From assembly GCA_947258565.1 (NCBI GenBank), contig CAMYJB010000001.1, positions 124,001-188,000 on the forward strand: a stretch of DNA of 64,000 nt. Direction: 5' to 3'. Positions 10,993-45,812 of this stretch are shown in pieces; the stretch's first letter is position 1, and each line of letters begins with the position of its first letter. The notes beneath the pieces are model-generated. The model did no database searches. It was not told the origin of the DNA and saw only the letters and a list, made by a program, of their open reading frames with translations. The stretch comes from an uncultured Woeseiaceae bacterium (lineage in GTDB: Bacteria > Pseudomonadota > Gammaproteobacteria > Steroidobacterales > Woeseiaceae). The translations under genes were made by a program, and so were the position numbers.

Positions 10993-13287
10993 CTAATCTT
11001 TCGCGGCGCCCCGCGCGACCGCGTACTCCTGCGCATCGACCACTGCGAGCGCACTCATGTTGACGATGCCACGCACGGTAACCGATTGGGTCAGTACGTG
11101 AGCGGGCCTGGCGACGCCAGCCAGGATCGGTCCGACGTTTACGCCGTCGCCCAGCGCTTTTACCAGATTGAACGCGATGTTGGCTGCGTCCAGGTCCGGC
11201 ATGATTAACAGATTAGCGCTACCGGTAAGCCGCGAGTTGGGGAAAATGCGCTCGCGTATCTGTTCGGAGATAGCGGCGTCAGAGTGCATCTCTCCCTCGA
11301 CCTCGAGATCCGGCGCGCGCTCGAGCAGGATCTGCAGCGCATCGCGCATCTTCTGCGCCGAGGGTGCGCTGCTGGCGCCGAAATTGGAATGCGACAAGAG
11401 TGCGGCCTTCGGCGTCAGTCCGAAGCGGCGAATCACGTCGGCCGCCATAAGCGTGGTTTTGGCAATGTGTTCGGCCGACGGATCGTTGGTCACATACGTG
11501 TCCGTGATGAACAGGCTACCCTTCGGCGTGATCAACAGGTTGATGGCAGAAAAATCCGTCAGCCCCGGCGCAACGCCGATGACGTTCCGAACGTAACTCA
11601 GGTGCTTGTGGAAGCCGCCGTTGACCCCGGCAACCATGCCGTCGACATCGTCACGATGAAGCAGGAGGGTGGCCAGGGCCGTGGTCCGGGTCAGGATGAT
11701 CGCACGCGCATCGGCCGGGGAAACACTCCGGCGTTCCATGATGCGATGGTAGTCGTCGCAATCCCTTTCGTAATTCGGATTGTTGGACGGATCGAGGACG
11801 TCGAAGTCCTTGCCGCAGACGATATGCAAACCCATGTCGCGGATCGTCGTTTCGATCAATTCCTGGCGTCCGAGCAGGAGCGGACGCGCGATGATGCCGT
11901 CGTCGACGAGAACCTGGACAGCGCGCAATACCCGCATCGACTCGCCCTCGGCGTAGACCAGTCGGCGCGGGTCCCCGGCGGCACGTTCGAACACCGGCTT
12001 CATTACCAACCCTGAACGGAAAACGTAGTTCTCGAGGCGGTGCCTGTAGGCGTCGAAATCCTCGATCGGTCGCGTCGCAACACCGGAGTCAATCGCCGCC
12101 TTCGCCACGCGCAAAGGCACTTCTGCGATCAGCCGCGGGTCGAAAGGCTTGGGAATCAGGTAGTCGGGACCGAAGCGCAGCTGTCCGCCCCCGTAGGCCG
12201 CGGCGACCTGCTCGTCGGCCTCTTCCATGACCAGGTCCGCCAGGGCCTCGACACAGGCGATCTTCATTTCTTTGTTTATGTCCGTCGCGCCCACGTCCAG
12301 GGCGCCGCGAAATATGTAGGGGAATACCAGCACGTTATTGATCTGGTTGGGATAATCGGAGCGGCCTGTGCCAATGATCGCGTCAGGTCGCACCTCGTGC
12401 ACCAGTTCCGGCCGGATCTCCGGCTCGGGATTCGCCAGCGCCATGATCAGCGGGCGATCGGCCATGCGTTTGACCTGCCCGGGCTCGAGGACGCGCGGCG
12501 CCGACAGCCCCAGGAACACATCGGCACCGCCAATCACGTCGTCGAGGACGCGTGCGTCGCTATCGACCGCGTAGCGTTCCTTGTACGGGTCCATGTTGTC
12601 ACGACCGAGACACACGACGCCGTGGATGTCGCAGAGAGTCACGTTCTCCTTCTGCAGGCCCATGGCAACCAGCAGGTCGACGCACGCCAGGGCGGCGGCG
12701 CCGGCGCCGCTGCCAACCAGACGCACGTCCTCGATGCGTTTGTCGATCAGGCGCAGTCCGTTCCGCACGGCAGCCGCGACGCAGATGGCGGTGCCGTGCT
12801 GGTCGTCGTGCATCACCGGTATCGACATGCGGTCGCGCAGCTTGCGCTCAATGTCGAAACACTCGGGCGCCCTGATGTCCTCGAGGTTGATGCCGCCGAA
12901 CGTGGGTTCCAGGGCGGCGACGATATCGACGAACCTGTCCGGGTCAGTTTCGTCGATTTCGATGTCAAAAACGTCGACGCCCGCGAACTTTTTGAACAGC
13001 ACCGCTTTGCCTTCCATCACCGGCTTGGAGGCCAGCGGCCCGATCGGTCCCAGTCCCAATACCGCCGTACCGTTGGTCACCACCCCGACCAGGTTGCCGC
13101 GGGTCGTATAGGTTGCTGCGTCGGAAGGGTTGTCGACGATCTCTTCACAGGCAACGGCCACTCCCGGCGAATAAGCCAATGCCAGGTCGAGCTGGTTGAC
13201 CATGCGCTTGGTCGGCTGGATCTGCAGCTTGCCCGCAACAGGATGCCGGTGGTAGTACAGCGCGCGTTCGCGAAATTCATCGGTCAT
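10993..13287 (-). CDS. maeB: NADP-dependent malic enzyme with phosphotransacetylase-like domain
   Basis: Decarboxylates malate to pyruvate with NADP+. The 764-residue hybrid has the malic enzyme domain in the N-terminal half ([55 protein letters not shown] as [11 protein letters not shown]) and a C-terminal phosphate acetyl/butyryltransferase-like domain, usually regulatory and not catalytic. I place the start at the ATG at 13287, preceded by AGGGGAA, over an upstream in-frame codon at 13335. The length matches E. coli MaeB (about 759). Confidence 0.95.
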
Positions 13288-13399
13288 CGGGATTCCCCTG
13301 CTTCTTGCTGTTGTTCGGGTTTCCGGCACGAACAACAGTTACCAATCCTGGTTCAAATCTCTGCACCGTGCTCGACCAGGTCAGCGCCGGTACCACGGG

Positions 13400-14806
13400 C
13401 TAGCCGCTCATATCCTCCAGCTCGACACCGCGCGTCTCGTGAACCATCTTCACGACGAACACGATCGAAAGCAGCGCGCAGAGCGTGTAGAAGCCGTAGG
13501 CGCCGGCAAGCCCGATGCTTGCGAGCATGATCGGGAACGTCATGGTGATGCCGAAATTCGAGCCCCACTGCGCGAGGCCGCTTACGGCAAGACCGGTGCC
13601 GCGAATCTGGTTCGGGAACATCTCGCCGAGCATGACCCACATCACAGGGCCCCAGGAAAAATTGAAGAATACGACGTAGACATTTGCCGCGACCAAAGCG
13701 AGAGGACCGAATATGCCCTCGAGCGTCAACTCACCGTTTGCGTCCGTCGTTGCATTCATGAACGCGATGACGAGGGTCGCCAGCGCCAATGACATACCGA
13801 TCGAACCGATCATCAGTATGGGCTTGCGGCCGATCCTGTCGATCAGCAAGACCGTGACCGTTACGGCACCGATGCTCAACCCGCCGCTGATGATATTGAT
13901 GAGCAGTGCGTCGCTCTCGGTAAACCCGACCGATTGCCACAGAACCGCCCCGTAGTAGAAGACGACATTGATACCGACGAGTTGCTGCAGCGTGGCGAGG
14001 CCGACGCCGACCCAAACGAGCTTGCGAATGCGATTCGTTTTCGGATCGACCAGGTCGCGCATGCGCGGCCTGTGATGGTCCGCAGCAAGCGAATGATCGA
14101 TTTCCTCGACTTTTCGTTCTGCAGCTTCTCGTCCAACGAGCTTGGTCAGGACGCAGAGCGCCTTGTCGCGGTGCCGGCACAGGACGAGGTAGCGGGGACT
14201 CTCCGGAATGAACAGCAGGGCGAGGAAGAAGATTGATGCCGGCAGGATCTCGATCCAGAACATCCAGCGCCATGCTTCGAAACCCAGCCAGAATTCGTTC
14301 GTCGAACCACCCGCAGCGCCGGCGAGCAAGTAGTTGCTGATGAAGGCGATGAAGAGTCCAGAGATAATGGCAATCTGCTGGATCGTTGCCAGAGCGCCCC
14401 TGAACCTGGCTGGCGCAACTTCCGCGATGTACGCCGGCGCCAGCACGCTTGCAGCACCAACTGCGAGGCCGCCAAGCACCCGGTAGACGACGAATTCGGC
14501 CGATGCGGACGCGATGCCCGAACCCCAGGCGCTAACGATAAAGAAGACAGCGGCTACGCGCATGATGCCGCGGCGCCCGAATCGGTCTGCAAGCCGCCCC
14601 GCAAAGAATGCCCCCACCGCACAGCCGAGCAGCATCGACGCAACGTTGAAGCCGGTGCCTACACTATCGGAGTTGAAAGCCCCTTGCAGCCCGTCAACCG
14701 TGCCGTTGATGACACCGCTGTCGAAGCCGAACAGGAAGCCGCCGATCGTTGCAATGCAGCTGATGATGATGACGTAGAGCGTATGTTTTTCTGATTCTTC
14801 CGGCAT
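13400..14806 (-). CDS. Sugar porter family MFS transporter
   Basis: Twelve-helix major facilitator of 468 residues. Sugar porter signatures are present: GFLFGFDSGVINGT in helix 1, GRLADRFGRRG in loop 2-3, PESPRYLVL after helix 6 and a second DRIGRKP in loop 8-9. Sugar-proton symport is the usual role of this family. No sugar catabolic genes sit beside it, so the substrate is not predictable. Transcribed in the same direction as maeB, with 112 bp between them. Confidence 0.9.
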   Translation of the reverse strand: MPEESEKHTLYVIIISCIATIGGFLFGFDSGVINGTVDGLQGAFNSDSVGTGFNVASMLLGCAVGAFFAGRLADRFGRRGIMRVAAVFFIVSAWGSGIASASAEFVVYRVLGGLAVGAASVLAPAYIAEVAPARFRGALATIQQIAIISGLFIAFISNYLLAGAAGGSTNEFWLGFEAWRWMFWIEILPASIFFLALLFIPESPRYLVLCRHRDKALCVLTKLVGREAAERKVEEIDHSLAADHHRPRMRDLVDPKTNRIRKLVWVGVGLATLQQLVGINVVFYYGAVLWQSVGFTESDALLINIISGGLSIGAVTVTVLLIDRIGRKPILMIGSIGMSLALATLVIAFMNATTDANGELTLEGIFGPLALVAANVYVVFFNFSWGPVMWVMLGEMFPNQIRGTGLAVSGLAQWGSNFGITMTFPIMLASIGLAGAYGFYTLCALLSIVFVVKMVHETRGVELEDMSG

Positions 14807-31421: not shown

Positions 31422-32750
31422 CTACTTGAAGATATCGGCCGGATCGATTCCGAAGGCGCCGTGCTCGTGACCGCTTGCGATCCACAGCGCGCCGGGCTGG
31501 GTGGCGTCGAGCGGCAGGTCGCGCATCTCCACTACCCTCGGTTGCGGCAATGGCGCTTTATTCTCGTCGAGCAACAGCAACACCTTGGGCCGCAGGATAT
31601 TGTGCGGATTCTGCTCGAGGACGACGGCCACCGAACCGTCGTTGAGTTCAACGAGGCTCGCAACCGGGAACATGCCCATGGTTGCGAGGAATTGCTCCAC
31701 GACCTCTGCCGCGAAGTCCTTGCCGCGCATGTCGTTCAAAGCCCTGGCGGCATCGTAGGCTGCCATAGGTTTTGAACAAGACGCCTCGCTGGTCATGGCA
31801 TCGTAGCAGTCTGCGATTCCGGCAATGCGGCCGAACGGCGGGATCTGGTTGCCGAGCATGCCGTGTGGATAACCGGATCCATCGAAGCGCTCGTGGTGAC
31901 ACCGGACCATGTCGGCAACCGGCTGCGCCACGCCCTGAGAATCCGCCAGGATATTCACCCCGAACTCGACATGCTGCCGGAGCATGGTCTTTTGTTCTTC
32001 TGTAATCGCGCCGCTTGACGCGGCAATACTCTTCGGGAGCATGGCGTTGCCGACATCGAGCAGCATGCCGCCCATCGCAAGAACTTCGAGCATGTCGCGA
32101 TCGAAATTCAGGTGGCGCCCGAACATCAGGCACCAGATCGCGGTGCCTACAGAGCGGTTGTAGTTTTCGGTGCTGCGCTTGCGGGAAAAAACCTCCCAAG
32201 CCAGTGCGTTCGGATTACGCAACACACTCTCGACCGCCGGCTGGACGGCTTGACGCAGCTCCTCAATCTGCACGTTGCCACGGATAGTCGCCCGGTCCAT
32301 CAGTGCCTTGTGGTGCTTGCCGAGAACTTTATACGCGTCGCGGGCTTCGCCGGCTTCCGCGCGCGCGGTGGTCTGTATCCCGTATCCCTCCTGCCCGCTC
32401 GAGGCGAGCGTGGCAGCCTGGCGAAAAAGCCCCAGGCGCGTCAACAGCTTCTGCAGCCATCGGATGAGCTTGCCCGGCTCCTTTGTCTTACGGCGTGAGG
32501 CCGGCGTCGGTTTGCGTGGCTGTCGCTGCAATTGGATGAGCCGTCGCACCTGATCATCCGACAGCTTGCCACGTTCGACGTCGATATAGACGATGCTGCA
32601 GCATCGCTGCAGCATATCGATCTCCGCCTGCTCACTGATCTCGAAGCCCTGGAAGATGAACGGCGTCTCGAGCCAGGGGCGATCCAGCTTCGAGACGTAC
32701 ATGCCTTCCGACACTTTCGCGACGTCGATTGGGACTTGCTTGATGCTCAA
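31422..32750 (-). CDS. DUF3391/HD-GYP domain protein with degenerate metal site
   Basis: A 442-residue protein with an N-terminal DUF3391 domain (KQVPIDVAKVSEGMYVSKLD) and a C-terminal HD-GYP domain normally acting as cyclic-di-GMP phosphodiesterase. The GYP block is intact (CHHERFDGSGYP, His285/286 and 291-295) and so are QHVEFG (His260) and ADCYDAM (Asp314). The HD dyad is broken: the expected HDxGK reads LDVGN (Leu231-Asp232), and the earlier conserved His in the HS motif is Arg199. Loss of two metal ligands suggests it is a c-di-GMP sensor or an inactive enzyme. It is convergent with the SDR. Confidence 0.88.
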   Translation of the reverse strand: MSIKQVPIDVAKVSEGMYVSKLDRPWLETPFIFQGFEISEQAEIDMLQRCCSIVYIDVERGKLSDDQVRRLIQLQRQPRKPTPASRRKTKEPGKLIRWLQKLLTRLGLFRQAATLASSGQEGYGIQTTARAEAGEARDAYKVLGKHHKALMDRATIRGNVQIEELRQAVQPAVESVLRNPNALAWEVFSRKRSTENYNRSVGTAIWCLMFGRHLNFDRDMLEVLAMGGMLLDVGNAMLPKSIAASSGAITEEQKTMLRQHVEFGVNILADSQGVAQPVADMVRCHHERFDGSGYPHGMLGNQIPPFGRIAGIADCYDAMTSEASCSKPMAAYDAARALNDMRGKDFAAEVVEQFLATMGMFPVASLVELNDGSVAVVLEQNPHNILRPKVLLLLDENKAPLPQPRVVEMRDLPLDATQPGALWIASGHEHGAFGIDPADIFK

Positions 32751-34629: not shown

Positions 34630-35142
34630 ATGAAATTCGGAACTCGCTGGCCGCCCGTACCCGCGGGCATTCTCATCGGCATCAGCATGTTGCTGGCCTT
34701 CGTCGTGGCAGGACGCGGCATCGGCGCAAGCGGGGCAATGACGCGCTTCGTCGCCTGGGTGCAGCACGGGCTGTTCCCGGCCGCCACGGAACAGAGCGCC
34801 TATTTCGGCAAGTACTTCGCCGACGGGGCGCACCCGCTTTACGACTACGTCGTGTTTCTCGTCGTGGGTCTGATCATCGGCAGCTTCATCGCCGCGTGGC
34901 TGAGCGGCGAACTCCGAGTCGAGGTGTTGCGCGGGGCTCGCAGCTCGATGGCGTACCGGCTCGCGCTCGGCCTGACCGGTGGCGTTCTCGCAGGATTTGC
35001 GGCCCGTCTTGCGCGCGGCTGCACCAGCGGCCAGGCATTGGTCGGCGGCGCCGAGCTGTCCCTCGGCGCATGGGTTTTCATGATGTGCATATTCGCCGGC
35101 GGCTGGATGGCGGCCTGGTTCGTGAGAAAACAATGGATATGA
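34630..35142 (+). CDS. YeeE/YedE family permease, first half
   Basis: A 170-residue membrane protein with about four hydrophobic segments and the YeeE/YedE signature RLARGCTSGQALVGGAELSLGAWVF, quoted here as ARGCTSGQAL, containing the conserved Cys that relays thiosulfate in TsuA. It is half the size of TsuA. The second half-permease begins inside its last codons (10-bp overlap), so the two probably assemble as a heteromer. It is the first gene of the operon, which suggests delivery or export of a reduced sulfur compound for the enzyme encoded downstream. Confidence 0.88.
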   Translation: MKFGTRWPPVPAGILIGISMLLAFVVAGRGIGASGAMTRFVAWVQHGLFPAATEQSAYFGKYFADGAHPLYDYVVFLVVGLIIGSFIAAWLSGELRVEVLRGARSSMAYRLALGLTGGVLAGFAARLARGCTSGQALVGGAELSLGAWVFMMCIFAGGWMAAWFVRKQWI

Positions 35143-35891
35143 TCGCTCCCCTCGCCAAAACGGGCGCCATCTCGCCCGAGATGAACCTTTGGCTCGCGAT
35201 ACCGATCGGTGTCGTGTTCGGTTACGCACTGTTTCATGCGGGCTTTACGGACGGGCGGCGCATCGCGTGGGCGTTCTATTTCAAGGACGTCGGCGTCCCC
35301 GTCGTCATGTTCTCGGCGATCGTCACCGGCATGCTCGGCCTTTGGGGCCTGAGCCTGGTCGGCTTTCTCGATATCACGCAGGTCTACCTGTTGCCGACTT
35401 TCCTGTTGCCGATGGCTATAGGTGGGATATTGTTCGGGCTCGGCATGGTGATCGGTGGCTACTGCCCCGGCACGGCCGTCGCCGCGGTAGCAACCGGCAA
35501 GATTGACGCCCTCGTGTTCATCGTCGGCTTTCTGCTGGGCAGCCTGATCTTCGGCGACCTGTTCCCGGTCTGGGGCGACTTCTACAATAGCGATTACATG
35601 GGCGTCGTTCGCCTGGACCAGACGCTCGGGATCGGGCTGGGCGCGGCCGTGTTCGCCGTTGTCGTCATCGCCTTGGTCGGCTCACTGGCGATGCGCTGGG
35701 TGCAGCAGCATTTCTGGCCGACGACCGATACCGACCCGCAGCAGGGCGCGATCCTGAAATTGCAGGGCGGCCTGATTGCTGCCGCCCTCGTCATCGGTTT
35801 CGCGCTCGCTTTTTTCCCGACAGAGTCTTTCATTGACGACAACCCCGAACCGCCTCACTACATCATTCCCAAAACAGCGAGCTCCCAGTGA
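35133..35891 (+). CDS. YeeE/YedE family permease, second half
   Basis: A 252-residue membrane protein with about seven hydrophobic segments. The conserved Cys lies in MVIGGYCPGTAVAAVATGK, which corresponds to the second Cys block of the YeeE/YedE fold. The ATG at 35133 gives a natural N-terminus before the first membrane segment (MNLWLAIPIGVVFGYALF) and overlaps the preceding gene by 10 bp. Its stop codon overlaps the GTG start of the molybdopterin subunit (GTGA), so the operon is tightly coupled. Confidence 0.88.
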   Translation: MDMIAPLAKTGAISPEMNLWLAIPIGVVFGYALFHAGFTDGRRIAWAFYFKDVGVPVVMFSAIVTGMLGLWGLSLVGFLDITQVYLLPTFLLPMAIGGILFGLGMVIGGYCPGTAVAAVATGKIDALVFIVGFLLGSLIFGDLFPVWGDFYNSDYMGVVRLDQTLGIGLGAAVFAVVVIALVGSLAMRWVQQHFWPTTDTDPQQGAILKLQGGLIAAALVIGFALAFFPTESFIDDNPEPPHYIIPKTASSQ

Positions 35892-38077
35892 AACGACGCG
35901 AATTCATCAAGGTCTCCTCGTTGCTCGGCGCGGGCGCTGCGGCATCTCCTGCGCTCTTGCTCGGCGGCTGCGCCGCGAAACCTCTGCCCGGCACCGGCAC
36001 GGTAAGTACCACGCCGACGATCTGCGACATGTGCTTCTGGAAGTGTGCGGGCAACGTTTACAAGGAAGACGGCGAGATCTGGAAGATCACCGGCAATCCC
36101 GATGACCTGCACAGCGGTGGCCGGTTGTGCACCCGGGGTACCGGCGGACCCGGCGCGTATCTCGATCGCGACCGGCTGAAAAGGCCGCTGATGCGCGTCA
36201 CGATCGACGGCAAGCAGACGTTCCGCGAGACGTCCTGGGATGTGGCGCTCGACTTCATTGCCGACAAGATGAAGTCCATCGCCGCGACGGCTGGTCCGGA
36301 GCGGATGCTCATGCTGAACCACGGCGCGGGCAGCAGTCACTTCCGCCACTTGCTGCGGGCTTACGGCTCGGACAGTCATGCCGAACCGGCGTTCGCGCAG
36401 TGCCGCGGGCCCCGCGACGTCGGTTTCAGGCTGACCTTCGGTGCGTCGGCCAGTTCGCCGGAGCGTACCGACATGGCCAATGCGCGCTGCATCGTGCTGA
36501 TCGGGTCGCACATCGGCGAGAACCTGCACAACGGACAGGTGCAGACGCTTGCCGAGGCGCTGAACAACGACGTGACGCTGATCACCGTCGATCCGCGATT
36601 TTCCGTGCCTGCGGGCAAGTCGAAATACTGGCTGCCCATCAAGCCGGGCACCGACATGGCGCTGCTGCTCGCGTGGATGAACGTACTCATTACGGAGGAC
36701 ATGTACGACAAGGATTACGTCGAACGTTACACGGTCGGTTTCGATCAGCTGGCCCGGCACGTACGCGATTACACGCCCGAGTGGGTGTATCTCGAGACGG
36801 GCATCAAGCCGGACGTGATCCGGCAAACGGCGCGCGAGATGGCGCAGGCGGCGCCCGCGACAGTCGTGCATCCCGGCCGGCATGCAGTCTGGTACGGCGA
36901 CGATACGCAGCGTAGCCGCGCGATCGCGATGCTCAACGCGCTGTTAGGGTCGTGGAACCGCAAGGGCGGCTTCTATGTTCCGGAGAAAGTCAGCCTGCCG
37001 AACTATCCGTTGCCCGACTATCCGAAGCCGAAGGCGAGGACGGCGGACGCGTACCCGGGCAAGTGGCCGTTCGCGGGCCAGGGCGTCACCAACGGCGTGA
37101 TCGAAGCCTCGGTTGGCGACGACGCGTACTTCAAGGGCTGGCTGGTCTACGGCACCAACCTGCCGCAGACGGTTCCCGGGATTGCGCAGCAGCTCGAAGC
37201 GGCCGCGAATTCGCTGGAACTGGTCGCCGTCGTGGAGACCATGCCGTCCGAGATGACGGGTTATGCCGATGTGATCCTCCCCGAATGCACCTTTCTCGAG
37301 CGTTACGACGACCTGCGCAACTCCGGCGAGCGGCATCCATCACTCGCGCTGCGCATGCCGGCCTTCGAGCCGAAGTACGACAGCAAGCCCGGCTGGTGGA
37401 TCGCGAAACAGCTCGGCAAGCGTCTCGGGCTGGAGGCGTATTTTCCGTGGAACGACTACGCCGAGAAGCTCGACTGGCAGCTAAAGCAGGTCGGCAGCTC
37501 GCTCGAGGAAATGCAAAAAATCGGCGTGAAGAACTTTCCGCGCAAGACACCGCTTTACTTCCGCGACGGCGAACGTGTGCGGTTTCGCACGCCGAGCCGC
37601 AAGATCGAGCTGTACTCGAAGCAGCTGGCCGACAAGGGTTTCGAGCCGATGCCGGTCTATACACCACCTGATCCTGTCCCGGAAGGTTTCTACCGGCTCA
37701 ACTACGGTCGCATGCCGGCACACACCTTCGGCAAGACCGTGAACAATCCGCTGCTGTTCCAGCTCTCTCCCGAGAACCAGGTCTGGGTCAATCCGCTGGT
37801 TGCAAACGAATGGTCGCTGAAGAACGGTGACTACGTGCGCCTGGGCGGCACCAACGGCGTAGTCAGCAACAAGGTCAGGGTTCGGGTCACCGAGCGGATC
37901 GGCCCTGACTCGGTATTCATGGCGCACGGTTTCGGCCACAAGTCCAAGCGGCTGCGACTGGCGGCCGGTGTCGGTGCCGACGACACGGAGCTGATGGGCA
38001 ACGTCAAGGTCGATCCCATCATGGGCGGCACCGGTCTGCGGGCAAGTTTCGTGACGTTCGTTCGAGAGCGCGCCTGA
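35888..38077 (+). CDS. Molybdopterin oxidoreductase catalytic subunit, PsrA/PhsA-like
   Basis: Catalytic subunit of a complex iron-sulfur molybdoenzyme, 729 residues. A Tat signal (KRREFIKVSSLLGAG, residues 2-16) directs export. A [4Fe-4S] motif uses Cys46, Cys49, Cys53 and Cys81 (CDMCFWKC ... CTRG). Cys172 in FAQCRGPRD sits where polysulfide reductase PsrA carries its Mo-ligand Cys. The remaining Mo-bisPGD domains and the C-terminal molydopterin dinucleotide-binding domain (LNYGRMPAHTFGKTVNNPLL) are complete. Related enzymes reduce polysulfide, thiosulfate or tetrathionate, or oxidise sulfite; substrate and direction are undetermined here. Confidence 0.9.
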   Translation: MKRREFIKVSSLLGAGAAASPALLLGGCAAKPLPGTGTVSTTPTICDMCFWKCAGNVYKEDGEIWKITGNPDDLHSGGRLCTRGTGGPGAYLDRDRLKRPLMRVTIDGKQTFRETSWDVALDFIADKMKSIAATAGPERMLMLNHGAGSSHFRHLLRAYGSDSHAEPAFAQCRGPRDVGFRLTFGASASSPERTDMANARCIVLIGSHIGENLHNGQVQTLAEALNNDVTLITVDPRFSVPAGKSKYWLPIKPGTDMALLLAWMNVLITEDMYDKDYVERYTVGFDQLARHVRDYTPEWVYLETGIKPDVIRQTAREMAQAAPATVVHPGRHAVWYGDDTQRSRAIAMLNALLGSWNRKGGFYVPEKVSLPNYPLPDYPKPKARTADAYPGKWPFAGQGVTNGVIEASVGDDAYFKGWLVYGTNLPQTVPGIAQQLEAAANSLELVAVVETMPSEMTGYADVILPECTFLERYDDLRNSGERHPSLALRMPAFEPKYDSKPGWWIAKQLGKRLGLEAYFPWNDYAEKLDWQLKQVGSSLEEMQKIGVKNFPRKTPLYFRDGERVRFRTPSRKIELYSKQLADKGFEPMPVYTPPDPVPEGFYRLNYGRMPAHTFGKTVNNPLLFQLSPENQVWVNPLVANEWSLKNGDYVRLGGTNGVVSNKVRVRVTERIGPDSVFMAHGFGHKSKRLRLAAGVGADDTELMGNVKVDPIMGGTGLRASFVTFVRERA

Positions 38078-38088
38078 GGGGATCACTG

Positions 38089-38631
38089 ATGACACGATTT
38101 GCCATGGTGATCGATACGAAGACCTGCATCGGTTGCGGCGACTGCGTCGTTGCGTGCAAGACCGAGAACAGGGTGCCGGACGGCCTCAACAGGGACTGGA
38201 TAGTCGAGGCAACGCAGGGGAAGTATCCGCAGCTCACGACGGAGTTTCGCTCGGAGCGCTGCAACCACTGCTCCAATGCGACCTGCGTAACGCTGTGCCC
38301 GACCGGGGCAAGCCATCACTGGGCAGGCACGAACATCGTCCTCGTCGACCCCGACATGTGCACCGGCTGCAAAGCGTGTATCGCCGCTTGCCCTTATGAC
38401 GCGCGCCTCGTCATGCATCCGGACGGCTATATCGACAAGTGCACGTTCTGCCATCACCGCGTCGGGGAGGGCCTCGACCCGGCCTGTGTCTCGAGTTGCC
38501 CGACGCGCTGCATGCATTTCGGTTCGCTCGACGAGCCGAGCAGTGAGGTCAGCCGGTTGCTGAAGACTCGCGAATACAAGGTTCTGAGCCCGGAAACGGG
38601 CAATGAGCCGAATGTCTACTACCTGATCTGA
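38089..38631 (+). CDS. Four-cluster [4Fe-4S] electron-transfer subunit (PsrB/TtrB-like)
   Basis: A 180-residue ferredoxin-like subunit with 16 clustered cysteines: CIGCGDCVVAC, CNHCSNATCVTLCP, CTGCKACIAACP and CTFCHHR...CVSSCPTRC, enough for four [4Fe-4S] clusters. This is the standard electron-transfer partner of a Tat-exported molybdoenzyme and has no signal of its own, so it should be co-exported with the catalytic subunit. It lies 11 bp after it and 12 bp before the NrfD gene. Confidence 0.92.
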   Translation: MTRFAMVIDTKTCIGCGDCVVACKTENRVPDGLNRDWIVEATQGKYPQLTTEFRSERCNHCSNATCVTLCPTGASHHWAGTNIVLVDPDMCTGCKACIAACPYDARLVMHPDGYIDKCTFCHHRVGEGLDPACVSSCPTRCMHFGSLDEPSSEVSRLLKTREYKVLSPETGNEPNVYYLI

Positions 38632-38643
38632 GGTCCGCGGAAG

Positions 38644-39642
38644 ATGAAGGAAGAATTGTTTGTCACCGCACGCAGTAACGCACTCATCGACCCGAGCCTG
38701 CACATATGGACCTGGGAAGTCGCGATGTACCTGTTCCTCGGCGGCCTCACCGCCGGCATCATGGTGTTCGCCGCAACCATAGCGTTGCTGAAGAAGGACG
38801 AGGAGGCGCCGTTCGCTGCCACGAAGCTGGCCCTGCTGGCTCCTGTCGTGCTGTCTCTCGGCATGACGACCCTGTTCCTGGATCTCGAGCACAAGCTGTA
38901 CGTGTTTCGGTTCTATACCTCGTTCCAGGTGCTGTCCCCCATGTCCTGGGGCGCGTGGATACTGATTGTCATTTACCCGGTCTCGATCCTGCAGATCCTG
39001 TCCACCCTGCGCAGCGGCTATCCGCAGGCTTCGCCGTATGTGGATCGTTTCGCAATTGGCAGGCAGGTGCTCGACTGGTGCGAGGCGAATCGCCGCCAGA
39101 TCGCGATGACGGCCATCCCGTTCGGCATCGCGCTGGGCATTTACACCGGTATCCTGTTGAGCGCTTTCAGCGCGCGGCCGTTCTGGAACTCCGGCGTACT
39201 CGGACCGCTGTTCCTGGTCTCCGGGCTGTCGACCGCGGCCGCGCTCGTGGCGCTCGTCGCGAGAAAACACAGCGAGAAGGTTCTGTTCACCCGGTTCGAC
39301 CTGGGACTGATCGCTGCCGAAGTGGCGCTCGTGGCACTCTTTATCATCAATCTCGCCAGCGGCACCGAGCAGCAGCTGACTGCACTGGACAGCATTATGG
39401 GCGGCCCCTATGCGCTGGTATTCTGGGTGCTGTTCGTCGGGGTCGGATTGCTGATACCGCTGGTACTCGAGCTCCTGGAGATTCGTGGTCTTGCACGCCG
39501 CGTAGCTATCGTCGCGCCGGTGCTCGTGCTGCTGGGAGGATACGTACTGCGCCAGGTGTTGATCGACATTGGCCAGGAGAGTAACTGGACGAAGTATGAT
39601 ACCCAGTATAATGCGGAGCTGCTGCAGCGGCTGCGCGATTGA
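38644..39642 (+). CDS. NrfD/PsrC-family membrane quinone-interacting subunit
   Basis: Integral membrane protein of 332 residues with eight to nine hydrophobic segments. NrfD-family features are seen: HIWTWEVAMYLFLGGLTAG near the N-terminus (quoted as WEVAMYLFLGGLTAG), FLDLEHKLYVFRFY and FQVLSPMSWGAW. Such subunits anchor the molybdoenzyme to the periplasmic face and exchange electrons with the quinone pool. Together with the two upstream genes it completes a PsrABC/TtrABC-type respiratory complex. Confidence 0.92.
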   Translation: MKEELFVTARSNALIDPSLHIWTWEVAMYLFLGGLTAGIMVFAATIALLKKDEEAPFAATKLALLAPVVLSLGMTTLFLDLEHKLYVFRFYTSFQVLSPMSWGAWILIVIYPVSILQILSTLRSGYPQASPYVDRFAIGRQVLDWCEANRRQIAMTAIPFGIALGIYTGILLSAFSARPFWNSGVLGPLFLVSGLSTAAALVALVARKHSEKVLFTRFDLGLIAAEVALVALFIINLASGTEQQLTALDSIMGGPYALVFWVLFVGVGLLIPLVLELLEIRGLARRVAIVAPVLVLLGGYVLRQVLIDIGQESNWTKYDTQYNAELLQRLRD

Positions 39643-39682
39643 GCGGCCGTCGAATTAATCAAACACAACGGACGAGAGGCAA

Positions 39683-40315
39683 ATGGCGCTACGACTGAAT
39701 TCGATCCTGCTGTTCCCGGTTGCGGCTATAGTCGCTGCATGCGGACAGGCACCCGAGCCTGGCACCGGGGTATCTTTTACGGATGTCGCGCAGTCCGCGG
39801 CTCGCCAGGAGGACCGTGTCAGCGTCGAACAGCTGGCCGAATGGCTGATCGAGGAACGCAAGGACTTCGTGCTGATCGACGTGCGTTCGCAGGAGGAGTA
39901 CATGAAGGGCAAGATCCACGAGGCCCGCAACGTACCTCTGGCCGAACTCGTCAGCGAAGAAACCATGGCCGGCCTCCCGGCCGACAGGAAGGTCGTCGTC
40001 TATTCCAATGGGTCCGAGAACGCGGCCAAGGCATCCACGATGCTGCGACTCGCAGGCCTCGACGCGCATCTCGTTACCGGCGGCTACAAGGCCTGGCATG
40101 AGCGCATACTCAATCCCGACATACCGGCCGAGGAACTGGACGGCGAGAGCCCGCAGGTGTCTGCCCAGCGTGCTTACAGCTGCTACTTTGTCGGCGAGCG
40201 CGGCGCAGCGGCTGCGGAACGCGGCGAAAAGAAACCGTTCGAGCCGCCGGTATTCACCGCGGAAGAGGACGAGGAGCTGCCGGAGTTGCCGCCTGTCGGC
40301 GAAGAATCCTGCTAG
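39683..40315 (+). CDS. Rhodanese-fold lipoprotein lacking the catalytic cysteine
   Basis: A 210-residue lipoprotein: signal with lipid Cys20 (AIVAACG) and a single rhodanese domain at about residues 45-140 (FVLIDVRSQEEYMKGKI ... HLVTGGYKAWHE). The active-site loop, normally CxxGxRS, reads SNGSEN (108-113): the persulfide-forming Cys is Ser108 and the Arg is absent. After the domain come Cys167 (AYSCYF) and an acidic, Pro-rich tail ending with Cys210. It is last in the sulfur operon, 40 bp after the NrfD gene. It may bind rather than transfer sulfur, or use the tail cysteines. Confidence 0.85.
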   Translation: MALRLNSILLFPVAAIVAACGQAPEPGTGVSFTDVAQSAARQEDRVSVEQLAEWLIEERKDFVLIDVRSQEEYMKGKIHEARNVPLAELVSEETMAGLPADRKVVVYSNGSENAAKASTMLRLAGLDAHLVTGGYKAWHERILNPDIPAEELDGESPQVSAQRAYSCYFVGERGAAAAERGEKKPFEPPVFTAEEDEELPELPPVGEESC

Positions 40316-40341: not shown

Positions 40342-41985
40342 CTAATCGACGGCAGGGATATTCGCGTCGATATCGGCGTCGAGGATCGCTTTCATTTCGG
40401 ATGCGTTGAAGGGTCGCTGACCCGGCACGGGCGTTGCTCCACCCAGGGCGTTGTCGGCGTTCGTCCAGGCATCGGCCGGCAGGCCGTCCTGCAGCAGAAC
40501 GTGTCGGGGGGTGAACGAAAACCCGTCTCCGTCACTGACGATGTCGCCTGTGCCCAGGCCGAGCGCCTTGCTCGAGCGATGGCAGGATTCGCAGGATCTC
40601 GAGTTGCCCGTGGTGTGCGGCGAGAGCGGCGCAAACCGCCGCACGAATCTGGCCGTGTCCCAGGCCGGGTGTGCGACCGTCATGATCATTCCCGGTACGA
40701 AGGGCTCGATCTCGTTGTTGTCGTTGACGCCGAGCGCGGGCGGCACGTTGTCTGCGTGCCAGAACCTGTCGGTCCAGCGCCCGGGCGTGAGGGATTTGTC
40801 GATGTGATCCCATTGCTCGCCGCCCGGATCGAACGCCATGTGGCAGCCATAGCATTGCGGCGCCCACTGGCTGTGACACGCGGCGCAGCTTAGCCGTTCG
40901 TGCGAATGATCTCGGGCATGCCGCCCGGGCGGCGGCACCGGGATTCGCAGCACGTGACCCGTATTCTTCGCGTGCAGCCATGCGCCATCATCGCGCAATT
41001 CGATGTTCCACAACGGTGTCCCGTGCTTCTCAGTTGCGAGGAAACGGGTATCGGCATTCGCGGCGAACGGCACGTGTTTCTTCATGCCCGCGAGCCCGGG
41101 CGGCCAGTCCCGCATGGAAATCCGCGGGCCGTCATTGCCGTGACAGTCGCTGCAGGCAATGTCGACTGCCTGTCGCTGGTGACTCGCGTCGCCGGCATCC
41201 GCCATCAGCCCGACGCTGGTATGGCAGTCGACGCAGCTCATGCCGGCGAGGTTGTGAACATCGGGCGGCAATCGTTCGACAGGACGGCCGTCTGCGAGAC
41301 GCAACTCAGGACGTTCGCCTGCGTTGGCCGGGGGCACGGTTTCCGCCAGACCCGCGTAACTGAGCGAGATTCGGCCGGAGCGGGAGTGGCAGCCGAAGCA
41401 ACGGCCGTCTTCCACGCGGGTCGTCAATGCCGGGTGAGCATCGTCCGGATAGTCGTTGATGTGGCAGGCGAGGCAACCGCCACCCCGGTCGCGCGTCACG
41501 TCCAGCGCATGATTCCGTTTCGGCTGGCCGAGGTGGCAGCTCGCACACTGCTTGCGCAACATCGAATCGGCAACGCTGTTTCCAAGCGACTGGAAATTCG
41601 CCTGCCTTGCGGCGCCCGATTCATCACCGAGAACGGCTCGCGTCTTCTGAACGATGCCGTGGCCCGTCTGCATCAGGTTGCCCGCGACACCCCTCACGCG
41701 ATCGGAGTGACAGTCGCCGCAGGCGCGTCCCGCCGTCGCGAGGTTGCCAGGGAATGCAATCAGGCCGTCGTGCGCTCCGGCCTCGGTCGATGACGAAGGG
41801 TTACCTGCGTGACAGGCGACACAGTTATCCGGGGCAAACGCATGCGCCGCGCCGAATCCGCTTTGCTCTGCAGCATGGCACTGCACGCAGCCGTTGACGC
41901 TCGCCGCCGGATCGCCGCCATCCGCTTGCCCGGGCGGCGTCAATGCGAGGAACAGGCCGAGTACGAGCGGTAAGCGACACAGCAT
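40342..41985 (-). CDS. Undecahaem c-type cytochrome
   Basis: A 547-residue secreted protein with a signal peptide (about residues 1-21) and eleven CxxCH haem c motifs: CVQCH (33-37), CVACH, CGDCH, CASCH, CLACH, CFGCH, CVDCH, CSDCH, CAACH, CYGCH and CESCH. Many additional His residues could serve as distal ligands. I do not recognise a named family; it is not an NrfA or Hao pattern, and I see no CX15CH. It is convergent with the sulfur operon (26 bp between stops) and diverges from the S9 peptidase. An electron-carrying role between the molybdoenzyme complex and another acceptor is possible. Confidence 0.92.
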   Translation of the reverse strand: MLCRLPLVLGLFLALTPPGQADGGDPAASVNGCVQCHAAEQSGFGAAHAFAPDNCVACHAGNPSSSTEAGAHDGLIAFPGNLATAGRACGDCHSDRVRGVAGNLMQTGHGIVQKTRAVLGDESGAARQANFQSLGNSVADSMLRKQCASCHLGQPKRNHALDVTRDRGGGCLACHINDYPDDAHPALTTRVEDGRCFGCHSRSGRISLSYAGLAETVPPANAGERPELRLADGRPVERLPPDVHNLAGMSCVDCHTSVGLMADAGDASHQRQAVDIACSDCHGNDGPRISMRDWPPGLAGMKKHVPFAANADTRFLATEKHGTPLWNIELRDDGAWLHAKNTGHVLRIPVPPPGRHARDHSHERLSCAACHSQWAPQCYGCHMAFDPGGEQWDHIDKSLTPGRWTDRFWHADNVPPALGVNDNNEIEPFVPGMIMTVAHPAWDTARFVRRFAPLSPHTTGNSRSCESCHRSSKALGLGTGDIVSDGDGFSFTPRHVLLQDGLPADAWTNADNALGGATPVPGQRPFNASEMKAILDADIDANIPAVD

Positions 41986-42089
41986 AGGCGGATTACTTTA
42001 GCAGAGCGGTGTCCCCGGGGTTCGTGTGTGCTGTCGTTGATCCCTCTGGTAAGGTTGCCGCTGCAACAATTTTGACCGGAGTCCCAAGA

Positions 42090-44129
42090 ATGAAAAGAAT
42101 CGTCCTGTCCTGCCTGGTTATGAGCCTGTCGTTCGCAGTCAATGCAGAGGAAACGCGGCGCCTGAGCGCGGAGGTCCTGTGGGAACTTTCACGTCTCGCA
42201 CCGCCGGTGATCTCGCCGGATGGCAGGCACATCGTGGTTGCTGCTACGACCTATCCCGAGGATGACGACCCCGAACAGAGCTTTAATCCGGAGACGCGTC
42301 TCTGGTTGCTGTCGACACGGTCGGGCAGCGAGCAACGGCCTTTGACGGCCGAAGGTACGCAAGCGAGCGAGCCTGTGTTTTCCCCCGACGGTTCACGCCT
42401 CGCGTTCGTCGGCAAGCGCGATGACGACGACACCGGGCAGGTCTACGTGTTGCCGATGGACAAGCCGGGCGAGGCCGTGAAATTGACGGACGTTCCCACC
42501 GGCGTCTCGGCGCTCAAGTGGACAGGAGAGCACATCTATTTCGTCTCGAATGTCTGGCCTGACAAGACCTTCGAGGCGATGGCGGAGGAGATCGAGGCCG
42601 AGGAGGACAGCAAGCTATCCGCGAAAACCTGGAACGCGATGCCTTATTCCCACTGGGATCACTGGCTCGACGAGGAACGGCAGAATCACCTGTTCCGGAT
42701 CCCGGCGGCCGGTGGCGAGATCGAAGCATTGACGTTGGGCACGGATTTGCAGTTGCCGCGCACCGACGCCGGCACCGGCGAATACGATGTGTCGCCGGAC
42801 GGCAAGCTGCTGGCATTCGTCGCCAACAGCCGCACAGAGGGCGTGTACCCGGACTACGACGTGTTTCTCATGGAGATTGGTTCGAAGGAAGCCGAGAACA
42901 TCACGGAGGAAAACGAGGCGCCGGACGGTCAGCCGATGTTTGCACCGGACGGCAAGACCCTCGCATACACACGTCAGGCCATTGCGGGATTCTACGGGGA
43001 CCAGGTGAAGCTCCTGATTCGCAAGTTGCGCTCGGGCAAGACGGATCTTCTGCATGAGACCTGGGACCGTTCGGTATCCGGGCTCGTGTGGGCGCCGGAC
43101 GCGAAGGGCTTCTATGGCGCCATAGACGATGCCGGCAGCCGCCGCGTGCATTACCTGCCGCTCGACGGGGCCCCTGAGCGACTCACAGACGCCACCAACT
43201 TCGATGGCCTGAGCATCGCCGACGACGGCACCCTCGTCGCACGCAACCAGAGCGCAGTGTATCCACCGCGGGTGGTTCTTGTGTCGAAAGACGGCAAGGA
43301 CGTGCGGCGCCTCGACCGATTCAATGACGAGATACTCGCCGACGTCGACATGGGAACCTACGAGTCGGTTACCTATACGGGCGCGGACGGAGACGAGATC
43401 CAGATGTGGGTGCATTATCCGCCCGGGTTCGATTCGCGCAAGCAGTACCCGTTGTTGCTTGCGATCCACGGCGGGCCGCACGGCGCCATCACCGACGTGT
43501 TCCATTTTCGCTGGAACACCCCGACCTTCGCATCCTGGGGGTACGTTGTTGCCTGGCCGAATTTCCACGGCTCGTCGGGGTTCGGTCAGGATTTCACCGA
43601 TTCCATCAACCCGGACTGGCTGACGAAACCGTATGCCGACGTCATCGCGGCAACGGAATGGTTCGCCGACAAGCCCTGGATCGACTCGGAGCGCATGGTT
43701 GCCGGTGGTGGCAGTTATGGCGGTTACCTCTCCTCGGTGTTGCTCGGTAAGGAGCATCCTTTCAAAGCCCTGGTCATACACGCGGCGGTCTACGACATGT
43801 ATGCACAGACCTCAGCCGACTTCGCAGTTCACGATCAGCGCTTCGGCCCGTACTGGGAGAACCCGGACATCTATGCCGAAATCTCGCCACACATGTACGC
43901 GGCCGGGTTCGACACGCCGAGCCTCGTTATCCACGGGCAGAACGACCTGCGTGTCCCGGTGGGCCAGGCGTTTTCACTGTTCCGGGCGCTGCAGCGCAAT
44001 GGTGTCGAATCGCGACTCGTGTACTACCCGGACGAGAATCACTGGATCCTGACGCGGGAGAACTCGGTGCACTGGTATGGCGAGTTCAGGGACTGGATAA
44101 CGCGCTTTGCGGCGCCCGGACCCCGGTAA
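42090..44129 (+). CDS. S9-family prolyl oligopeptidase-type peptidase
   Basis: Secreted peptidase of 679 residues. A signal peptide (KRIVLSCLVMSLSFAVNA) is followed by a WD40-like beta-propeller (about residues 30-410) and an alpha/beta-hydrolase domain: nucleophile in GGGSYGGYLSS, Asp in VIHGQNDLRVP and His in PDENHWIL. This is the dipeptidyl-peptidase IV/acylaminoacyl-peptidase group. The ATG at 42090 gives the signal peptide and is chosen over an in-frame GTG at 42009. Confidence 0.92.
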   Translation: MKRIVLSCLVMSLSFAVNAEETRRLSAEVLWELSRLAPPVISPDGRHIVVAATTYPEDDDPEQSFNPETRLWLLSTRSGSEQRPLTAEGTQASEPVFSPDGSRLAFVGKRDDDDTGQVYVLPMDKPGEAVKLTDVPTGVSALKWTGEHIYFVSNVWPDKTFEAMAEEIEAEEDSKLSAKTWNAMPYSHWDHWLDEERQNHLFRIPAAGGEIEALTLGTDLQLPRTDAGTGEYDVSPDGKLLAFVANSRTEGVYPDYDVFLMEIGSKEAENITEENEAPDGQPMFAPDGKTLAYTRQAIAGFYGDQVKLLIRKLRSGKTDLLHETWDRSVSGLVWAPDAKGFYGAIDDAGSRRVHYLPLDGAPERLTDATNFDGLSIADDGTLVARNQSAVYPPRVVLVSKDGKDVRRLDRFNDEILADVDMGTYESVTYTGADGDEIQMWVHYPPGFDSRKQYPLLLAIHGGPHGAITDVFHFRWNTPTFASWGYVVAWPNFHGSSGFGQDFTDSINPDWLTKPYADVIAATEWFADKPWIDSERMVAGGGSYGGYLSSVLLGKEHPFKALVIHAAVYDMYAQTSADFAVHDQRFGPYWENPDIYAEISPHMYAAGFDTPSLVIHGQNDLRVPVGQAFSLFRALQRNGVESRLVYYPDENHWILTRENSVHWYGEFRDWITRFAAPGPR

Positions 44130-44186
44130 TTGGAATTTGCCCGGTAGTCCGGTGTCCAATCAGGCATTCGCCGGGCGGGGGATCGC

Positions 44187-45812
44187 ATGTCTGACAAGCA
44201 ACCTGCAATGGCGCGAAGGGATTTTCTCGCCGCCATTGGCAAGGCCGTTGGGGGCTCCGCCATGTTGCGGGCAATGGCGGCGATGGGCATCGGCACTTCG
44301 ATCTCGGCTTGTGGTTCTTCGTCGGCAGCGTCCGCCCCGGGCGCGACGTCTCCGCCAGCGCCGCGTGTAGACTCGCCGCGCCCCGGCGACTGGCCGGCGA
44401 ACGTCGGTGCCGGCAAGACAGTCGTGATTCTCGGCGCAGGCATCACCGGGATGACTGCGGCACTGGAGATGACCCGGCTGGGTTATGCGTGCACGCTTCT
44501 CGAGGCACGGTCGTCTGCCGGCGGCCGGGTATTGACGCTCCGCGCCGGTGACGTTGTGAACGAGACCGATTCGTCACAAACCTGTCAGTTCGATATCGAC
44601 GAAGAACTGTATTTCAACGCCGGGCCGTCGCGTATCGCGCAGCACCATGAATTCCTGCTCGGCTACTGCCGCGAGTTCGGGGTGAAGCTCGAGCCGTTTA
44701 CGAACGATAACCGCGGCGCCTGGTTGCATTCACCAGGCGCTTTCGGCGGACAGCCGCAGATCGCGCGACAACTGCTCGCCGATACGCGCGGCGGCATCGC
44801 TGAATTGCTGTCCACGGCGATAAATCAGGACGCACTCGACCAGGCGCTCACTGAGACGGACAAGGCCAATATCCTCGCGATGCTGCGGCAATTCGGCGAC
44901 CTCGACATCAACTACATCTATGACGGTACGCCGCGTGGCGGATTTCCGGGTCAGGGAAACGCAGGTAGCCGCCAGCGAGGTGAGCTGCTGCCGCCAAGGC
45001 AGCTACAGGAGCTGGTCACGGAGTTTTTCTGGGAACTCCGTTTGTCTTTTTCCCAGGGCTTCGATCAGCAGCCCGCGATGCTGCAACCTGCAGGCGGAAT
45101 GGACAGGATCGCTCGTGCGTTCGAGTCACGAGTCGTCGACGACATCGTATTCGAGGCCACGGTCACGGAAATCCGAAAGACGTCCGGCGGCACCCGTGTC
45201 GTCTTCAACGACCTGTCGGGGACACCTGCGACGATCGAGGCCGACTACTGCATGGTCACCGTTCCCGCGCCCGCACTTGCGGGCATCGACAATGATTTCT
45301 CTGCAGCCCATCAGGCAGAGATCGAGGGTTTTCAGTATTCATCGGCCGTGCGCGTGGCATTCCAGGCGCCACGATTCTGGGAGCAGGAACACAACATCTA
45401 TGGCGGCATCACCTGGACCGACCAGGACATCACTCAGATCTGGTATCCCAACCACGGATTCCAGAATCCAAACGGCATAATCGTTGGCGCCTATATTTTC
45501 GACGGCGCAGCCGGCGGCAGGTTTACCGACATGGCACCGGTGGCACGCATCGACGCGACGCGCGCACAGGCAGCAAACGTGCATCCGCAATTCCGGGACC
45601 AGGCAACGCATGGCATCAGCGTGGCCTGGAATAAAATGCCTTTTCAACGTGGTGGCTGGGGAACGTCAATTCCGTTGGCACTGCTGAGCGCGGACGACAA
45701 TATCTTCTTTGCGGGCGAACACCTCAGTATCCTCCAGGGCTGGCAGGAAGGCGCAATACTGTCGGCGTACCTGGCTATCGATCAGATCGTAAACCGCGAT
45801 CTCGGTGCCTGA
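44187..45812 (+). CDS. Flavin-containing amine oxidase family protein, Tat-exported
   Basis: FAD-dependent oxidoreductase of 541 residues. The N-terminus has a Tat motif (ARRDFLAAIGK) and a SxCG site (ISACGSS) that could make it a lipoprotein. The Rossmann motif VVILGAGITGMTAALE and the EARSSAGGRV motif define the amine oxidase/phytoene desaturase fold; FFAGEHLS near the C-terminus completes the FAD site. Substrates in this family include amines, amino acids and others, so specificity is open. It starts 57 bp after the S9 peptidase and may be co-transcribed. Confidence 0.88.
   Translation: MSDKQPAMARRDFLAAIGKAVGGSAMLRAMAAMGIGTSISACGSSSAASAPGATSPPAPRVDSPRPGDWPANVGAGKTVVILGAGITGMTAALEMTRLGYACTLLEARSSAGGRVLTLRAGDVVNETDSSQTCQFDIDEELYFNAGPSRIAQHHEFLLGYCREFGVKLEPFTNDNRGAWLHSPGAFGGQPQIARQLLADTRGGIAELLSTAINQDALDQALTETDKANILAMLRQFGDLDINYIYDGTPRGGFPGQGNAGSRQRGELLPPRQLQELVTEFFWELRLSFSQGFDQQPAMLQPAGGMDRIARAFESRVVDDIVFEATVTEIRKTSGGTRVVFNDLSGTPATIEADYCMVTVPAPALAGIDNDFSAAHQAEIEGFQYSSAVRVAFQAPRFWEQEHNIYGGITWTDQDITQIWYPNHGFQNPNGIIVGAYIFDGAAGGRFTDMAPVARIDATRAQAANVHPQFRDQATHGISVAWNKMPFQRGGWGTSIPLALLSADDNIFFAGEHLSILQGWQEGAILSAYLAIDQIVNRDLGA

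Follow-up and report, generated by a model that had tools for sequence, protein, structure and literature searches.

Molybdoenzymes of the PsrA/PhsA/SrrA lineage are reported to act on polysulfide, thiosulfate or selenite (PMC10100899, PMC7331816), and two questions about sulfur traffic around enzymes of this kind are addressed here: the route of sulfane sulfur to periplasmic molybdenum enzymes, and its transfer from SoxY-like carriers into the cytoplasm. SoxY is described as carrying sulfur on a cysteine at the tip of a flexible C-terminal GGCGG arm (PMC6067878), and the means by which sulfur enters the cytoplasm from carriers such as SoxY has been called unknown (PMC11582611). The locus examined lies in a stretch of 64,000 nucleotides from an uncultured Woeseiaceae bacterium (GCA_947258565.1, contig CAMYJB010000001.1, positions 124,001-188,000), referred to below as the window. 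Six genes at this locus, here called yeeA, yeeB, mopA, ferB, nrfD and rhod, encode a split YeeE/YedE permease, a PsrA-like molybdoenzyme with its ferredoxin and membrane subunits, and a rhodanese-fold lipoprotein that ends in cysteine; a multiheme cytochrome gene, mhc, converges on them.

Split transporters of the YeeE/YedE family have been described, including PmpA and PmpB, which are YeeE halves with cysteines matching Cys293 and Cys91 of TsuA (PMC11582611), and YedE1E2, a two-protein importer of zero-valent sulfur in which both conserved cysteines are essential (PMC10812762). Handover of sulfur from the SoxY cysteine along the cysteines of a YeeE-like channel has been called conceivable (PMC11582611). 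In the metallopterin-dependent ergothioneine synthase (MES) of Caldithrix abyssi, a protein of 1136 residues, Cys1135 is described as essential for sulfur delivery to a Cys-ligated bis(molybdopterin guanine dinucleotide) (bis-MGD) site (PMC9516567).

With a slight lean in its favor, we propose that the window rhodanese acts as a SoxY-like swinging arm, built on a rhodanese scaffold, that moves sulfane sulfur between the MopA complex and YeeAB. The SoxY arm and the C-terminal cysteine of C. abyssi MES are the precedents that lead us to read this protein as an anchored sulfur arm.

The rhodanese and its terminal cysteine

The window rhodanese ends in GEESC, and this terminal Cys210 is invariant in an alignment of 15 sequences, in all of which the active-site loop lacks cysteine. 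An earlier note on this DNA had described the protein as a rhodanese without cysteine, which is correct for the loop, YSNGSENAA, but not for the protein itself, which contains Cys152 as well as Cys210; the C-terminal cysteine, the fusions found in relatives, and the opposite-strand multiheme cytochrome were all missed there. An AlphaFold model built with 15 sequences has a rhodanese core (residues 41-150) with block values of the predicted local distance difference test (pLDDT) of 86-97 and an apparently disordered tail, with block values of 47-54 from residue 171 on. The top Foldseek matches of the model are rhodanese-fold proteins (best E 1e-7), and a SoxY fold was not found in it.

In 47 of 59 loci of the MopA clade, a rhodanese, separate or fused to YeeB, has cysteine as its last or second-last residue; 45 of these are intact open reading frames (ORFs), and L014 and L116 are frameshifted, with the tail read from the next frame. 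Ten of the 59 loci end at contig edges before the end of the rhodanese gene. Some loci closely duplicate others, which means that the cases counted are partly non-independent. The tails commonly end in EESC, EEGC, KKKKKEGC, PEGGC, GGCG, and GGGCD. The tail is negatively charged in Woeseiaceae-like copies and positively charged in most Bacteroidota, so the linker varies and the tip does not.

Terminal cysteines are confined to a few proteins of the operon. Counting duplicate loci, they occur in 42 of 46 rhod products, 7 of 12 double rhodaneses, and 13 of 49 YeeB proteins, and in none of the products of mopA (0/89), ferB (0/89), nrfD (0/75), yeeA (0/48), or mhc (0/29). A control set of 30 rhodaneses, drawn from 116 PF00581 matches that occurred in 12 of 13 genomes, contained two that end in cysteine, both operon members, and none among the other 28. 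L080 and L081 additionally carry ordinary loop-Cys rhodaneses, which have no terminal cysteine. A C-terminal sorting signal of the MYXO-CTERM or GlyGly-CTERM kind was also considered and was ruled out, as the cysteine is followed by 0 or 1 residue. The signature of the module is a loop without cysteine, a Cys-ended tail, and mopA/yeeAB neighbors, and it separates the module from the plain Psr-like loci examined.

The split permease and its ties to the tail

The conserved cysteine of each permease half is kept in every aligned sequence, window copies included (45/45 for yeeA and 46/46 for yeeB). YeeA aligns to residues 244-327 of TsuA (6leo), and YeeB scores 26.2 bits with DUF6691, slightly below the cut-off of 27, with no sequence match in the PDB at E 0.1. 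The two half-length genes cover the two halves of the YeeE profile with a conserved cysteine in each, and on this basis YeeAB is predicted to be a split sulfur transporter of the PmpAB/YedE1E2 type. The two-gene half-permease, whose combination with a rhodanese-fold lipoprotein lacking the catalytic cysteine was not one that the earlier note recognized from characterized systems, is not new, as both PmpA/PmpB and YedE1E2 have already been described as half-length pairs with like conserved cysteines (PMC11582611, PMC10812762).

In some relatives the rhodanese is part of the channel protein. YeeB-rhodanese fusions are found in the Bacteroidota locus L101 and in the Planctomycetota loci L025, L175, and L176, each with a cysteine within the last two residues, and seven Gammaproteobacterial loci (L013-L018 and L032) have a separate YeeB with EGC as its own C-terminus; the window YeeB does not end in this way. 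One of the seven, L017, comes from the isolate Sinimarinibacterium sp. CAU 1509. These fusions in two phyla and the seven EGC-ended YeeB proteins tie the tail to the channel, and the fusions give comparative support to a handover between the two.

Distribution of the module in relatives

A scan of genome contigs returned 34 loci, 12 of which show all six genes and the convergent cytochrome; several other Gammaproteobacterial loci among the 34 end at contig edges. At E 1e-150, MopA matches were found in 9 of 369 Gammaproteobacteria genomes, two of them (L084 and L085) distant and outside the clade, and within the window's order in 2 of 147 genomes, namely the window genome and another from its genus. 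The same threshold gave 38 of 345 Bacteroidota and 5 of 246 Planctomycetota genomes; plasmid searches with mopA and rhod returned distant relatives only.

The 38 Bacteroidota comprise 25 high and 13 low scorers, from which L020 and 20 further high-scoring loci and 11 low-scoring loci were examined. Where the stretch is long enough, the high scorers have the order mopA-ferB-nrfD-yeeA-yeeB-rhodanese, except that the last two genes are fused in L101 and no permease gene was detected in L102. The low scorers, L086-L096 (6.7-19 kb each), have mopA, ferB, and nrfD alone, with permease and rhodanese genes absent in all 11, and they are a natural control for the partners of the module. Both permease halves lie near mopA on the same strand in 44 of the 59 clade loci, several of the others ending at contig edges, and a multiheme cytochrome gene (mhc or otr) is present in 31. 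The six-gene set is far above chance, and its core recurs in Bacteroidota and Planctomycetota; the convergent cytochrome belongs to the set in Gammaproteobacteria. Separation of the permease and rhodanese genes from mopA, the result that the earlier note had said would count against a functional unit, was not what the synteny comparison showed, as both stay with mopA in relatives.

The catalytic subunit

MopA had been called PsrA-like, and structure matches, NCBIfam scores, and a tree agree in placing it with enzymes of the PsrA/PhsA/SrrA kind. Its best solved relative is Thermus PsrA (2vpw), matched over the full length at 653 bits (E 5.6e-195), compared with 142 bits for an ArrA chain. NCBIfam models give 471.5 bits for PhsA, 150 for ArrA, and 47 for TtrA, the first of these being under the curated cut-off of 694 bits for PhsA thiosulfate reductase (NF012032); ArrA and TtrA have no rows in the tree and were compared with MopA by scores alone. 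In the tree, which has 89 rows, MopA falls inside a 55-row clade with a Shimodaira-Hasegawa-like approximate likelihood ratio test (SH-aLRT) value of 92. This clade is nested in a 68-row group (SH-aLRT 99) with Thermus PsrA and 11 plain Psr-like Bacteroidota rows; that group does not contain the 16 Bacillota rows or E. coli PhsA. Among the references used, MopA is by sequence nearest to Thermus PsrA, on its own branch beside it, and a placement in a non-sulfur clade such as arsenic or formate enzymes, which had been named as a refuting outcome, did not occur. The column of the molybdenum ligand holds cysteine in every row of the tree alignment, with MopA Cys172 aligned to the cysteine of Thermus PsrA, and positions H145, C172, and R331 do not vary among the clade members aligned. 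A search of the window genome with MopA returned the window copy and two distant paralogues.

A closest solved relative of this kind would also be expected if the complex were an ordinary Psr/Phs respiratory reductase, with a tail cysteine that is structural or held in a disulfide, accessory genes that are loosely associated, and a permease that serves biosynthetic sulfur uptake. The invariance of H145, C172, and R331, residues with familiar roles, and the menaquinone gene menD in 7 of 12 mopA-positive genomes tested (see below) fit this explanation as well. We nevertheless consider it unlikely, given the YeeB fusions and EGC tails, the widespread tail cysteine with its clean control set, and the plain Psr-like loci that have neither permease nor rhodanese genes. 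Furthermore, the tail cysteine is the only cysteine of the ORF in 15 of 24 tail-bearing single-domain Bacteroidota rhodaneses, which makes an intramolecular disulfide impossible there and counts against the same explanation.

Rhodaneses beside other Psr/Srr-type enzymes

Psr-like matches (E 1e-100) were found in 14 of 299 genomes of a sample of Bacilli, the class of genome G870. In two of these Bacillota loci, L180 and L182, the gene of a double-rhodanese lipoprotein ending in ASCG closely precedes the catalytic gene, and a triple rhodanese is encoded downstream; the arrangement is similar to that of the published srr operon, which also encodes rhodanese-domain proteins (PMC12481199). In L186 (2702-4383), two adjacent rhodanese lipoproteins end in GGGGGGCGG, a SoxY-type motif; the pair is on the opposite strand, some kilobases from the Psr-like operon. 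L192 (12990-18712) has a run of four rhodaneses close to a Psr/Srr-like catalytic gene, all of them without a terminal cysteine. No rhodanese was found by the models used in the remaining ten of the 14 loci. The ASCG and GGGGGGCGG tips near other Psr/Srr-type enzymes may mean that delivery to a molybdenum site by an arm is perhaps general in sulfur and selenium respiration.

These loci also bear on whether the module is a selenite or tellurite reductase like Srr, with arm and rhodanese carrying selenium and mhc as an ExtM-like partner. Selenite could be reduced by a cell that has only ubiquinone, mhc is a distant relative of ExtM, and L180 and L182 have a similar layout with the ASCG-tailed protein. 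As described, the six srr genes of B. selenitireducens encode catalytic, FeS, and anchor subunits together with rhodanese-domain proteins (PMC12481199). MopA and Srr were compared by lineage and layout, SrrA itself not being among the rows; in the tree MopA joins Thermus PsrA, and L180 and L182 are on a separate Bacillota branch. A chaperone is encoded by srrD, and no match to a chaperone family was found for any of the six genes. A selenium function of this kind therefore seems quite improbable.

Multiheme cytochromes near the module

The product of mhc scores 211.5 bits with ExtM (NF040943), below the cut-off of 800, and is a distant relative of that family. It reaches 20.6 bits with the octaheme tetrathionate-reductase family (TIGR04315, cut-off 375), and in a profile comparison it matched octaheme tetrathionate-reductase-family proteins of Bacteroidales at probability 96. 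Its AlphaFold model (10 sequences) had a mean pLDDT of 43 and was not used.

In Bacteroidales, the operons of L020-L022 and L031 have as neighbors an octaheme tetrathionate-reductase-family cytochrome and a thiosulfate-reductase-like cytochrome b. These families were scored on L020, where the cytochrome reaches 520 bits with TIGR04315, over the cut-off of 375, and were assigned by synteny in the rest; the cytochromes again point to a sulfur context. In L020 (188-2863), L021, L022, and L031 the octaheme cytochrome adjoins a cytochrome b561-like protein with a PAS domain. The YTD sulfur-disproportionation cluster, as described (PMC12998232), was considered as a relative and set aside, there being no TusA or DsrE match in the neighbors scanned, a scan that covered part of the loci.

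Proposed mechanism and direction of sulfur flow

In the mechanism proposed here, MopA, FerB, and NrfD would form a periplasmic, quinone-linked complex of the Psr type that works with the split YeeA-YeeB sulfur channel, and the membrane-anchored rhodanese-fold protein would be the mobile sulfur carrier between them. The old active-site loop being without cysteine, the working thiol would be the C-terminal cysteine, borne on a charged and disordered tail some 35-40 residues long and cycling between thiol and persulfide. At MopA the reaction would be R-SH + HS- <-> R-S-SH + 2e-, with FerB and NrfD relaying the electrons to or from quinone, and at YeeAB the arm would hand its sulfane sulfur to the channel cysteines. 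The gene set and its conservation, the tail cysteine, the fusions, and the molybdenum-ligand cysteine are observed; that the tail cysteine carries sulfur and visits MopA, and the direction in which the sulfur flows, we infer. As the rhodanese often has a single cysteine, at the tip of its tail, and is in some relatives fused to the channel, both handovers could be tested by changing one residue.

For the window organism, sulfide oxidation with sulfur import is our tentative choice, held at just under an even chance, and it is at least as likely as reduction. This leaning comes from the lack of a known menaquinone route in the window genome (99.7% complete), in which neither menD nor MqnA/D was matched. 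In a ubiquinone-only cell, the oxidation of sulfide to an arm persulfide followed by import is easier than the reduction of sulfur.

The same arm might instead run in reverse, in the window organism too, with sulfane sulfur on the arm, derived from polysulfide, S0, or thiosulfate, being reduced to sulfide in anaerobic respiration and the channel either passing sulfur to the arm or taking up the excess. This alternative differs from oxidation and import in direction alone, and we rate it as possible but rather doubtful for this organism; in relatives with menaquinone, the reverse direction is plausible. The homology to PsrA argues for it, as do the octaheme tetrathionate-reductase-family cytochrome and the thiosulfate-reductase-like cytochrome b beside the L020-L022 and L031 operons. 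A further argument is menD, which is over cut-off in 7 of 12 mopA-positive Gammaproteobacteria genomes and 0 of 18 negatives, a comparison confounded by kinship, as all 18 negatives belong to the window's family, to which 2 of the 12 positives belong, one of those 2 with menD. MqnA/D was found in none of these 30 genomes. The missing menaquinone genes of the window genome and the weakness of ubiquinol as a donor for sulfur argue against reduction there. So does the report that YedE1E2 imports rather than exports (PMC10812762).

Menaquinone was also considered as an explanation of the module itself and was rejected, with menD absent from the window genome and the counts confounded by kinship; it leaves the direction unsettled. 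In the Thiohalobacter locus L015, the cytochrome gene is followed at a short distance by menD (11996-13864, 413 bits), and a related ORF is similarly placed in L013. A link with the Sox pathway was examined through SoxB. Of the 12 mopA-positive genomes, 9 have SoxB over cut-off, and in one more (G381) the gene is divided between two contigs; the window genome and G745 do not have it over cut-off, and 3 of the 18 negatives do.

Several observations weigh against a sulfur arm working in the direction of oxidation and import. Known PsrA/PhsA enzymes are reductases, the menD counts favor low-potential reduction in the genomes that have it, and SoxB is not over cut-off in the window genome. The SH-aLRT value of the 55-row clade is below 95, and mhc has no firm role in the arm model. 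Exceptions to the tail also occur: L019 and L028 have full context and no tail-Cys rhodanese (in the tree, the L028 enzyme falls narrowly outside the 55-row clade), the last cysteine of a second rhodanese in L020, L021, and L031 is five residues from the C-terminus, L100 has two double rhodaneses without a terminal cysteine, and the enzyme of L192, which has no tail, groups with those of L180 and L182, which have one. Finally, the authors who called the SoxY-to-channel handover conceivable doubt direct Cys-to-Cys transfer inside YeeE, given the spacing (PMC11582611).

Layout of the window locus

All six ORFs of the set reported at 34630-40315 were found on the + strand (Table 1), with overlaps or gaps of at most 40 bases throughout. 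The genes yeeA and yeeB overlap, as do yeeB and mopA at GTGA (35888), and the mopA-ferB, ferB-nrfD, and nrfD-rhod gaps are 11, 12, and 40 bases. Pfam domains agree with the assignments: Sulf_transp in both permease halves, three molybdopterin domains in mopA, Fer4_11 in ferB, NrfD, and Rhodanese. The start of yeeB is ATG 35133 or 35139. FerB was earlier described as a four-cluster ferredoxin, and its 17 cysteines leave room for four [4Fe-4S] clusters.

Table 1. Features of the sulfur module and its convergent cytochrome gene, in window coordinates (Mo-bisPGD, molybdenum-bis-pyranopterin guanine dinucleotide)
Feature	Position	Strand	Description
yeeA	34630..35142	+	C-terminal half of YeeE/YedE transporter, PmpA-like; PF04143 89.4 bits, profile 173-310
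yeeA Cys131	codon 35020-35022	+	motif RGCTSG
yeeB	35133..35891	+	N-terminal half of YeeE/YedE, PmpB-like, plus extra membrane segments; PF04143 56.9 bits, profile 13-189
yeeB conserved Cys	codon 35463-35465	+	motif GGYCPG
mopA	35888..38077	+	PsrA-like Mo-bisPGD catalytic subunit; twin-arginine start MKRREFIKVSS
mopA cluster Cys46/49/53/81; Mo ligand Cys172	Cys172 codon 36401-36403	+	invariant/Mo-ligand alignment columns
ferB	38089..38631	+	PsrB-like electron-transfer subunit; PF13247 86.8 bits; NrfC/ArrB/DsrO-like NCBIfam models
nrfD	38644..39642	+	NrfD/PsrC-like quinone-linked membrane subunit; PF03916 155.4 bits
rhod	39683..40315	+	rhodanese-fold lipoprotein; PF00581 60.6 bits; lipobox Cys20 (39740-39742); loop YSNGSENAA
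rhod C-terminal arm, residues 175-210	40205..40312	+	predicted disordered; tip Cys210, codon 40310-40312
mhc	40342..41985	-	convergent periplasmic multiheme c-type cytochrome, 11 CxxCH

Upstream of the module, the window encodes an HD-domain protein with DUF3391 (31422-32750), a combination that we take to be the usual make-up of cyclic-di-GMP phosphodiesterases. On the far side of the module are an S9-family peptidase and then a flavin amine oxidoreductase (42009-45812).

Comparison with known systems

The enzyme part of the module resembles PsrABC, PhsABC, and SrrABC, whose catalytic subunits form a lineage of the DMSO reductase superfamily, in its Cys-ligated catalytic subunit with one [4Fe-4S] cluster, four-cluster ferredoxin, NrfD-type anchor, and twin-arginine start. 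Unlike the plain Psr-like loci L086-L096, the module regularly has YeeAB, a tail-Cys rhodanese, and often a multiheme cytochrome. Sud, the polysulfide-sulfur transferase of Wolinella, is a periplasmic rhodanese-fold protein that feeds sulfur to Psr. It uses a loop cysteine, whereas the loop of the module rhodanese has none and the cysteine is at the C-terminus.

The permease shares with PmpA/PmpB and YedE1E2 two genes for two YeeE halves with one conserved cysteine each, and differs in that YeeB is longer and in relatives at times fused to the rhodanese or ending in EGC. Its genetic partner is a molybdoenzyme, whereas YedE1E2 is reported to occur often with a persulfide dioxygenase (PMC10812762). 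ExtHIJKL-ExtM of Geobacter likewise combines a rhodanese lipoprotein and an ExtM-type multiheme cytochrome in one cluster, although the parts of the published descriptions drawn on here mention neither a molybdoenzyme nor a YeeE pair (PMC6148476, PMC5877670).

SoxY corresponds to the module rhodanese in the idea of a periplasmic carrier with a flexible C-terminal arm tipped by a cysteine, often beside glycine, and differs in that the module has a rhodanese fold and a PsrA-type molybdoenzyme as partner; the tips of module rhodaneses are EGC, ESC, or GGC compared with GGCGG in SoxY, and the window GEESC shares the terminal cysteine alone. MES of C. abyssi, as described, also relays sulfur to a Cys-ligated bis-MGD site by a C-terminal cysteine, although it is a cysteine-desulfurase fusion that makes a C-S bond and works without membrane subunits (PMC9516567).

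It is conceivable, at somewhat less than an even chance, that the module represents a new class of periplasmic carrier in which the catalytic cysteine has been relocated from the loop to an arm tip and which is joined to a split YeeE and serves a Psr-type enzyme. Relocation of the thiol from loop to tip, its wide conservation beside this enzyme clade, and fusion to a YeeE half were not found in the open-licence literature searched, which does not cover the main Srr paper. Every part of the module has a known relative among the systems compared above, and it is the relocation of the thiol, its conservation, and the YeeE fusion that are new within the literature searched.

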